From the NCBI GenBank assembly GCA_017481945.1, contig JAFUOJ010000026.1, positions 1 through 44,962 of the forward strand: a stretch of DNA of 44,962 nt, read 5' to 3'. Position numbers and translations under genes: made by a program. Origin of the DNA: Parabacteroides sp. GTDB lineage: Bacteria > Bacteroidota > Bacteroidia > Bacteroidales > Tannerellaceae. Numbering within the stretch: position 1 is the first letter of the stretch; each line of letters begins with the position of its first letter. Below are positions 43,795-44,962 of the stretch, piece after piece. A model generated the notes under the pieces. That model was not told the origin of the DNA. It did not search any database and worked only from the letters and a program-made list of their open reading frames with translations.

Positions 43795-43881
43795 TCATAA
43801 TTTAAAACTGTATCCTATTCCAATAATATGCCCACCCTCTTCGAAAGCAGAGCAAAAGTTACTTACTAAGTAGAACCTCCT
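43795..43881 (-). pseudogene. Possible C-terminal tail of an outer membrane beta-barrel protein
   Basis: The minus-strand frame ending in TGA at 43795-43797 reads EEGGHIIGIGYSFKL, with alternating strand pattern and an aromatic end like outer membrane barrels. It closes at an in-frame TAG near 43880 inside the repeat array, so only about 28 codons remain. It precedes the lipoprotein remnant in the same direction. The similarity is by pattern only. Confidence 0.3.
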
Positions 43882-44028
43882 CTACTTAGTAAGCAGCTTC
43901 CTCTCTACTTACTAAGCAGAGAAAAGGCTACTTAGTAAGTAACCGACTGTCTACTTACTAAGTAGGTTTTCACCCCTTTACGAGCAGAACATTTTTTACT
44001 AAGAAAACGATAGTTTTTTTACTGAAAA
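43837..44028. repeat. 23-bp tandem array of palindromic TACTTA(C/G)TAAGTA cores
   Basis: Five 13-bp cores begin at 43860, 43883, 43906, 43929 and 43952, exactly 23 bases apart. The centre base is C, G, C, G, C, so successive cores are alternately oriented; two have C for T at position 12. Spacers of 10 bases differ. Weaker copies seem to continue at both ends: one near 43837 and two at 43993 and 44016 (the last two also 23 bases apart). Adjacent cores can pair into long hairpins. It ends just upstream of the HU-HIG promoter. Confidence 0.85.
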
Positions 44029-44031
44029 CGC

Positions 44032-44061
44032 TTTGATATTAAAAAAGAATGTGTACTTTTG
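44032..44061 (+). promoter_or_regulatory. Promoter for the HU-HIG transcript
   Basis: TTTG (44032-44035), 18 bases, TACTTTTG (44054-44061). It matches both consensus boxes, with a start expected near 44068, about 220 bases before the HU-HIG ATG. Confidence 0.65.
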
Positions 44062-44066
44062 CTCTC

Positions 44067-44286
44067 GGTTATTGAGATGACCATTATTTTTTACAAGACG
44101 AATTAATTTTTTTATTTTACAGACTATTTCAACGAAAATTTAAAGACAGATTTTTAAATAACTTTTTAAACACATTTTTAAAATATACTTTATTACATCT
44201 TTTTATTGAACTATATTTTTTATTTTAAGACGAATCTCAATAACCAAAATCATTTTTTTATTTTTTAACTATTAAATACGGTAGAT
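44067..44286 (+). other. Long AT-rich leader (or separate small RNA) bracketed by a 12-bp inverted repeat
   Basis: GGTTATTGAGAT at 44067-44078, beginning at the expected transcript start, pairs perfectly with 44234-44245. Between them lie AAGACGAAT twice as a direct repeat (44095 and 44227), and three TTTTTAAA units starting 12 bases apart (44151, 44163, 44175). After the right arm comes CAAAATC and a run of Ts (44252-44267), which could terminate an RNA of about 200 bases. No ORF is present. It is either a structured 5' leader or a distinct small RNA. Confidence 0.5.
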
Positions 44287-44736
44287 ATGGCATTCAAATT
44301 CCGTCGTATCAAAAAAGTATTCGGTTTCGACAAGAGTAAAACCGAAAAGTACGTGGTAGTTCCAGATAGAGCAACTCCCGTATCATTTAGAAATCTTTGT
44401 GAGCAAATTGCACTGATTTCAGGTATTAACTTAGGAAACGTGCAGGCAACACTGTTCGCCTTAGTCCGATCCATGAAGACTTTCTTCCAGGAGGGACATG
44501 CCGTCCAAGTAGAAGGGTTCGGAACCTTCATGCCTTCGTTTAATGCCAAAAGTTCCCAGATTGAAGAAGAAGCTAATGCTGACTCCATCGTACGAGTCAA
44601 GCTCCGCTTTATTCCCTGTGATGAATTGCGAACCATGTTGAATAATATTACTTTCACATTCAATGAGAAAGATAGTACCAACGACAGCAAAACATCCACA
44701 AGCACAGAAGAGGATGAACAACCGGACGAACTTTAA
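44287..44736 (+). CDS. HU-HIG family histone-like DNA-binding protein
   Basis: A 149-residue basic protein of the Bacteroidetes HU-related family. The N-terminal extension has FKFRRIKKVFGFDKSK; the HU body spans about residues 25-115, with ISFRNLCEQIA-like first helix, QATLFALVRSMKTFFQEGHAVQVEGFGTF and the DNA-binding arm region near KLRFIPCDEL. The C-terminus is a Ser/Thr/Glu/Asp tail (STSTEEDEQPDEL). Such proteins bend and compact DNA. The unusual repeat array and AT-rich leader upstream may be its own binding targets, which is inference. Confidence 0.85.
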   Translation: MAFKFRRIKKVFGFDKSKTEKYVVVPDRATPVSFRNLCEQIALISGINLGNVQATLFALVRSMKTFFQEGHAVQVEGFGTFMPSFNAKSSQIEEEANADSIVRVKLRFIPCDELRTMLNNITFTFNEKDSTNDSKTSTSTEEDEQPDEL

Positions 44737-44799: not shown

Positions 44800-44829
44800 A
44801 GCAAAAAGTCTGACATATCGAAAAAAACA

Positions 44830-44837
44830 TACCTTTG
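44830..44837 (+). promoter_or_regulatory. Promoter -7 box of the right-edge transcript
   Basis: TACCTTTG directly after the HU-HIG terminator. The -33 element is unclear. Confidence 0.45.
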
Positions 44838-44843
44838 TGTCGT

Positions 44844-44962
44844 TCTCACGCCGATTTGCGGGTGGGAGCAGACATATATATAAAAGGCGTTTATTGAGCG
44901 TCTTGTCTTCTACATTTCCAAACTTCGCAACTTTGAGAATACACAAGAAGGCAGGGCAACGA
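44844..44962 (+). ncRNA. 5' part of an untranslated transcript cut by the window edge
   Basis: From the expected start near 44844 to the window end there is no ATG in any plus frame. The segment is less AT-rich than the intergenic DNA before it, with CTCACGCCG facing GCGGGTGGGAG as an imperfect hairpin and GACAT...GTCTTCTAC further on. It is preceded by its own promoter box and a terminator, so it is either a non-coding RNA or an unusually long leader. A candidate family is the Bacteroidales-1 RNA motif, which I cannot align from memory. Confidence 0.35.

Follow-up and report, generated by a model that had tools for sequence, protein, structure and literature searches.

Several evenly spaced sites upstream of promoters are found in IHF-type complexes, and iterons are likewise evenly spaced repeats that resemble binding sites. 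Pneumococcal BOX elements are dispersed and intergenic, and the number of their central modules varies. Most HU proteins have weak sequence specificity, and HU-HIG was reportedly named in a 2017 survey of the HU superfamily by Burroughs and colleagues. BldC-type direct repeats also provide several evenly spaced sites upstream of promoters, according to the accessible part of the report (PMC5859096), and E. coli HU helps an RNA contact cruciform DNA, according to the accessible part of another (PMC6907758). The term HU-HIG occurs once in the accessible part of PMC11035120. Our literature searches, with most subscription papers outside their reach, found no paper on HU-HIG function and no description of the arrays reported here or of HU-HIG sites; the available parts of the work on P. 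gingivalis repeats (PMC5771137) and on RepRanger (PMC12306157) contain nothing on these arrays.

The locus analyzed here lies in a stretch of 44,962 nucleotides of Parabacteroides sp. DNA (the window), in which a run of palindromes precedes an HU-HIG gene (Table 1). Like IHF- and BldC-type multi-site operators, the arrays of this kind offer several evenly spaced sites upstream of promoters; they differ in that the proposed binder is HU-HIG, the sites are 15-bp palindromes at 23 bp, and the palindrome type differs between paralogs. They share even spacing with iterons but stand beside many genes rather than one origin. REP/BIME sequences are also dispersed intergenic palindromes, and the palindromes that characterize REP/RAYT systems are present here; however, the arrays are regular at 23/24 bp, often lie near promoter boxes and lack a consistent RAYT. 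Pneumococcal BOX elements, set alongside by description, have the dispersed intergenic location and the variable modules in common with the arrays, whereas the arrays are tied to a DNA-binding protein. More loosely, E. coli HU with naRNA4 and REP325 may serve as a parallel, since, as far as the available part of that source goes, it too brings together an HU-family protein, dispersed extragenic palindromes and a structured non-coding RNA; naRNA4 is encoded in REP itself, whereas the candidate RNA here is a separate gene beside some arrays.

Table 1. Array, gene and candidate regulatory features in the window.
Feature	Position	Strand	Remarks
Weak flanking unit	43836..43850	.	2 mismatches; 23 bp ahead of first unit
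Palindrome array, five units CTACTT-N3-AAGTAG	43859..43965	.	23-bp steps
Unit spans	43859-43873, 43882-43896, 43905-43919, 43928-43942, 43951-43965		
Weak flanking unit	43973..43987	.	2 mismatches; 22 bp past last unit
Bacteroidota-type -7 box TACTTTTG of putative HU-HIG promoter	44054..44061	+	motif match; 88 bp from array edge
Predicted HU-HIG 5' leader region	44060..44252	+	inverted repeat arms 44060-44078 and 44234-44252
HU-HIG gene, 149 aa, HU/IHF fold, proposed array reader	44287..44736	+	PF18291, E 6.9e-20
First 134 bases of candidate ~310-nt structured RNA	44829..44962	+	contig ends inside

Each unit of the array is a palindrome of 15 bp, and the 8-bp spacers are all different. The exact sequence TACTTASTAAGTA occurs in three of the five 13-mers (43860, 43929 and 43952), and the remaining two end in AAGCA. 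A two-unit pattern with up to 3 mismatches gave 4 matches in the window and none in 100 dinucleotide-preserving shuffles; in the whole genome it gave 14 forward matches versus 0 for the reversed pattern, and a reversed single 13-mer control gave 1. The original prediction of five palindromes every 23 bp with differing spacers is thus borne out, and the weaker copies that it placed on either side of the run are present as well (Table 1). By eye only, more TTTTTTACT copies lie near 43995 and 44018. The alternation of C and G at the unit centre, also part of that prediction, is found in the window copy (C, G, C, G, C) but not as a trait of the family, in which 220 units from 48 elements had C in 66, G in 66, A in 49 and T in 39.

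The genome of the window (G000; 2.79 Mb, 83% complete) carries five CTACTT-type arrays, each of five units at 23 bp. Besides the window copy, which lies between fumarase and HU-HIG, they are located between aspA and nitroreductase, between ileS and a DUF3810-like gene, downstream of thrC, and between recQ and beta-galactosidase (names of neighbors other than HU-HIG are readings of the translations). A strict three-unit pattern matched 7 of 98 genomes, every one in the genus, and its reversed control matched one other genome (G020). With a three-unit model at E<=1e-4, the family was detected in 15 of the 38 genus genomes; grouping of the matches gave 59 candidate loci, all of which were taken. 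A strict unit chain, with steps mostly of 23 bp, was found in 48 of them, and the counts for 48 elements given here exclude the other 11 loci. At least one 24-bp step occurred in 38 of the 48 elements, the spacer there often being C- or G-rich, and a single element overlapped a called ORF, which was small and doubtful. The search for the core at 23-bp spacing in its own and related genomes, suggested together with the prediction, was therefore positive in both. Iterons, one of the kinds of array then considered, do not fit, because the copies sit at ordinary chromosomal genes; the five arrays of G000 stand at unrelated ones and are not confined to an origin beside a rep gene. A phage or plasmid origin was rejected after blastn with one array per collection: the C13 array had no match in the plasmid collection and the window array none in the phage collection. 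In a Prevotellaceae MAG, near-identical 23-bp repeats were observed, six units (CTACTCAGCGAGTAGATG...) at L058:3756-3885 and nine (CTACTCGATGAGTAGATG...) at L059:189-387, with no HU-HIG in the 8 kb covered at each. The arrays of the genus form a family of dispersed intergenic palindrome arrays, often upstream of promoter boxes.

The -7 motif of Bacteroidota is TAnnTTTG. Of 96 element edges, 30 had this motif in outward orientation at a distance of 50-140 bp, compared with 9 of 96 in the inward control (p=2.6e-4). Outward boxes numbered 8, 10 and 8 in the bins of 60-80, 80-100 and 100-120 bp (control, 1, 2 and 2), and at 11 of the 30 box-bearing edges an ORF start lay 18-37 bases behind the expected start point. 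Five of the six elements neighboring HU-HIG had the box at 88, 98, 96, 108 and 95 bp. Ten proteins encoded behind boxes were scanned and proved to be of mixed kinds: a beta-propeller protein, an M13 peptidase, a permease, a HepT-like protein, an exonuclease, a glycosyl hydrolase 88, a protein with BspA-type repeats, a BrkB-like protein and a radical SAM protein, while the tenth matched no family. The description as a multi-site operator, which had been offered next to iterons, fits the regularly spaced sites and the excess of promoter boxes, the boxes being motif matches present at 50-140 bp in 24 of the 48 elements (control, 9/48). By crude ORF calls, 13 sites were divergent and 9 convergent; the window site was counted as tandem because a false minus-strand ORF took the place of HU-HIG in these calls.

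The HU-HIG protein of the window belongs to PF18291 (71.8 bits; curated cut-off, 26.2), and Foldseek pairs its predicted model (mean pLDDT 78.4, pTM 0.59) with HU/IHF structures (best E 3.5e-4). At E<=1e-30, 18 homologous genes were found in 11 of the 38 genomes. Of the 48 elements, six precede an HU-HIG start by 322-608 bp, and every one of these is on the 5' side of the gene. A periodic array, defined as at least 31/46 matches at a lag of 21-26 bp between -900 and -100, was detected in 13 of 16 HU-HIG upstream regions, two of the 18 loci being excluded for too little upstream DNA, and in 2 of 47 control regions (p=5e-9; 2/47 controls reach 30). As controls we took the DNA preceding fumarase, aspA and ileS in genomes other than that of the window; the three own-genome regions were omitted because arrays had led to them, and with these added, all three of which score, the controls came to 5/50 (p=1.8e-7). 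The palindrome test adds a fourteenth HU-HIG region, L287, with a score matched by 2/47 controls, and L278 and L290 had no periodic array upstream of HU-HIG. Over lags of 14-40, the best was 23 in eight and 24 in four of the 16 regions; in L283 the top score goes to a 13-bp repeat in the leader, and the 23-bp array of that region scores 44/46. The leader in L283 contains several copies of this repeat, TTTTAACGATAGA, within a long AT-rich stretch, and many of these HU-HIG genes have predicted leaders of 230-410 nt.

The palindromes upstream of HU-HIG genes, read by eye, are of several types. The CTACTT type occurs in seven regions, and the second paralog of G000 has TTACTC-N3-GAGTAA. The CTTAGTAAG type is found in G028 and G031, the CATCGTGATG type in G031 and a GTACC...GGTGTAC type in G028; a third type, CTACGATATAG, lies upstream of a G025 paralog and at dispersed G025 loci, and G015 has a AAGATATATATCTT repeat with a degenerate CTACTT-like stretch. 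The TTACTC pattern was present in 3 of the 38 genomes, at three places in G000 (the second paralog and two further loci), and its reversed control matched only G003, 6 times. In the protein tree, all seven CTACTT bearers fall within one group of ten, whose other members are the TTACTC paralog, placed on a long branch, and the proteins of G015 and G022, the latter with no array upstream; array types differ between paralogs, with few events and modest tree support (85/92).

Arrays were present in 9 of 11 genomes with HU-HIG versus 6 of 27 others (p=0.0011), and the loci per genome were 5, 5, 4, 3, 1, 4, 8, 2, 9, 0 and 0 with HU-HIG versus 0 in 21 of 27 without (p=2.6e-4), p values that are optimistic because the genomes and some HU-HIG genes are closely related (two proteins are identical). 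Where an HU-HIG falls into the tree group of the CTACTT bearers, all eight genomes had arrays, versus 7 of 30. G028 and G031, whose HU-HIG genes have other array types, gave no match to the CTACTT model. The link to the neighboring HU-HIG, originally put forward as an inference, is backed by position, co-occurrence and the different array types at paralogs. We therefore lean towards reading the array as a multi-site operator of the neighboring HU-HIG, probably common to its own gene and a small regulon; that HU-HIG reads the arrays is the best-supported inference.

A candidate structured RNA of ~310 nt accompanies some of the arrays. This non-coding sequence lies downstream of an element in seven genomes and starts 86-129 bp behind the last unit in four of them. 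It was found in 21 of the 38 genomes with 1-4 matches each, namely in 11/11 with HU-HIG and 10/27 without (p=3e-4). Double changes occurred in 11 of 53 consensus pairs (alignment of 20 of the 37 matches), and the candidate has a terminator-like end (loci L224:3436-3775 and L244-L273). No Rfam family matched it at gathering, and a relaxed scan gave sub-threshold hits only. The HU-HIG leader was rejected as a relative of this RNA, the local alignment of ten leaders being no better than shuffles (lowest p 0.055).

Several findings speak against an HU-HIG operator: half of the elements (24/48) are without a promoter box at 50-140 bp, nine lie between convergent genes by the crude ORF calls, and arrays occur in genomes without HU-HIG. 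At E<=1e-30, six of the 15 array genomes had no HU-HIG; the clearest exception is G010 (95% complete, nine candidate loci), and the other five are G004, G016, G023, G024 and G026. The array-free upstream regions of L278 and L290, the missing CTACTT-model matches in G028 and G031, the modest tree support and the weak sequence specificity of most HU proteins count on this side as well. These genomes, and the position of arrays beside many ordinary genes, would suit a different regulator that binds the arrays and controls HU-HIG merely as one target among others. Since the array type shifts with the HU-HIG paralog, even within one genome, such a third regulator would need to duplicate and diverge in step; the co-occurrence of arrays and HU-HIG also argues against this explanation, which we consider unlikely.

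Occupation of the array sites varies among genomes. No array was found in 29 other loci at the thrC site or in 29 at the fumarase site, where L106, L116 and L119 are incomplete on the upstream side; at the ileS site, 13 other spacers were array-free by eye, two being visible only in part, and the single comparable genome at the aspA site was array-free. By eye, the region downstream of thrC in other species (L067, L070, L071, L072 and L077) has repeat arrays of different sequence or long hairpins at a step of ~22-24 bp. In G025, there are four near-identical composites (L238-L241), each a CTACTT array beside a CTATATCGTAG array and preceded by an inverted repeat GTTCTTTTGC/GCAAAAGAAC; one flank is shared further between L238 and L239, and L240 and L241 are in different surroundings. 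The composites point to recent dispersal. Whole-unit differences separate the close relatives G016/G017 and G005/G010, which bears on the suggestion that copy number be compared between strains. As a separate observation, G016 keeps an element (L206) but is without the HU-HIG adjoining it in its close relative G017 (L207), and has one locus genome-wide, G017 four.

In gapless pairs from different genomes, changed positions numbered 20/216 in the arms, 10/54 in the centers and 28/116 in the spacers (arms versus spacers, p=0.0005), a comparison covering the four of eight element pairs with equal unit number. Eight pairs at shared or similar sites were compared, and three of them show stronger conservation of the element than of either flank: L193/L220 (element 73/85; flanks 27/49 and 22/48), L197/L229 (64/85; 27/60 and 29/58) and L224/L231 (104/108; 54/60 and 46/60). 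The flanks of the two most diverged pairs retain about half of their bases, and strict orthology of L193/L220 is unproven because some pairs rest on one-sided flank matches. At least one flank equals or beats the element in L192/L221, L192/L227, L201/L213, L206/L207 and L223/L229, which counts against an HU-HIG operator. Selection on the palindrome cores is supported by the slower change of the arms and by the poorly kept flanks of the two most diverged pairs; the original contrast of selection with slippage holds in this part. Slippage may contribute, through the whole-unit indels, but does not explain the arrays entirely.

The empty orthologous sites, the G025 composites with their differing surroundings (L240, L241 and the pair L238/L239), the variable unit number and the intergenic location would be expected of a REP/BIME- or MITE-like dispersed repeat that is copied by a transposase and has no regulatory role. 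This reading is less likely than the operator, and we hold it to be quite improbable: the arms evolve more slowly than the spacers, promoter boxes are in excess at 60-120 bp, and Y1 (RAYT-type) transposases occur in 3 of the 15 array genomes and 5 of the 23 others. A RAYT transposase as the mover was rejected, Y1_Tnp being present in 8 of 38 genomes and unlinked to arrays; none was found in the window's genome at its 83% completeness.

The arrays could also act as RNA, as a long hairpin transcript, a terminator or an HU-bound nucleoid RNA like naRNA4. For the minus strand of the window array, folding gives a single long hairpin (-74.3 kcal/mol, z -7.2, 0/200 shuffles as good), and the plus strand reaches z -4.9 (1/200 as good). 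The strand with G-rich centers folds better in 24 of the 33 elements callable for both (p=0.014), and the better-folding strand runs with tandem neighbor genes in 16 of 22 (p=0.052). At the six HU-HIG neighbors, however, this strand points toward HU-HIG in two, away in three and is unclear in one, and double changes were found in only 2 of 49 pairs across the five elements of the window's genome. The evidence for folding as RNA is suggestive only, because the direction relative to HU-HIG is mixed and the covariation weak. In 14 of 19 elements, base skew was greater on the better-folding strand than in the flanks, a result left unused because the strand was partly selected by its fold. A bidirectional terminator was rejected, since the site orientations, from crude ORF calls, do not favor convergent genes. 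Rfam 15 gave 0 matches at gathering in 18 loci, and in the window every hit stayed below threshold even under relaxed settings (the highest, bglG-cis-reg, 28.7 bits versus 80). A role as RNA is less likely as well, and in our view very improbable. Neutral tandem slippage of the palindromic unit would account for the whole-unit indels between close relatives, but it is scarcely credible given that the arms are kept while the spacers differ and that HU-HIG genes also have arrays built in this way from other palindromes.

For the multi-site operator of HU-HIG, the mechanism that we favor is as follows. HU-HIG dimers, with the HU/IHF fold of a DNA-bending family, would occupy one 15-bp palindrome after another at 23-bp steps, as a rule 60-120 bp ahead of promoters, and the bound array would be bent into a nucleoprotein complex on which promoter activity depends. 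The window copy would control the HU-HIG gene itself by feedback, and the dispersed copies would make up a small regulon, which in some genomes may include the ~310-nt structured RNA. After duplication of HU-HIG, protein and array may diverge together, so that related paralogs would use different palindromes. That HU-HIG itself is what binds, which way the effect runs and what geometry the complex takes are inferred. A further step, which we put forward as speculation and think doubtful, is that HU-HIG proteins act as sequence-addressed chromatin proteins: each paralog would read its own type of palindromic 23-bp array, control itself by this means and gather scattered loci with such arrays and a dedicated structured RNA, so that a single genome would hold several address codes in parallel, each copied and altered along with its protein.

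If each paralog does read its own array, sequence alone would supply the HU-HIG family with a function and, for each genome, with a predicted site and regulon, and would reveal an HU-fold protein whose sequence specificity evolves. The arrays suggest a testable, sequence-addressed system of chromatin or gene control, and culturable Parabacteroides are suited to tests of the arrays and the RNA.
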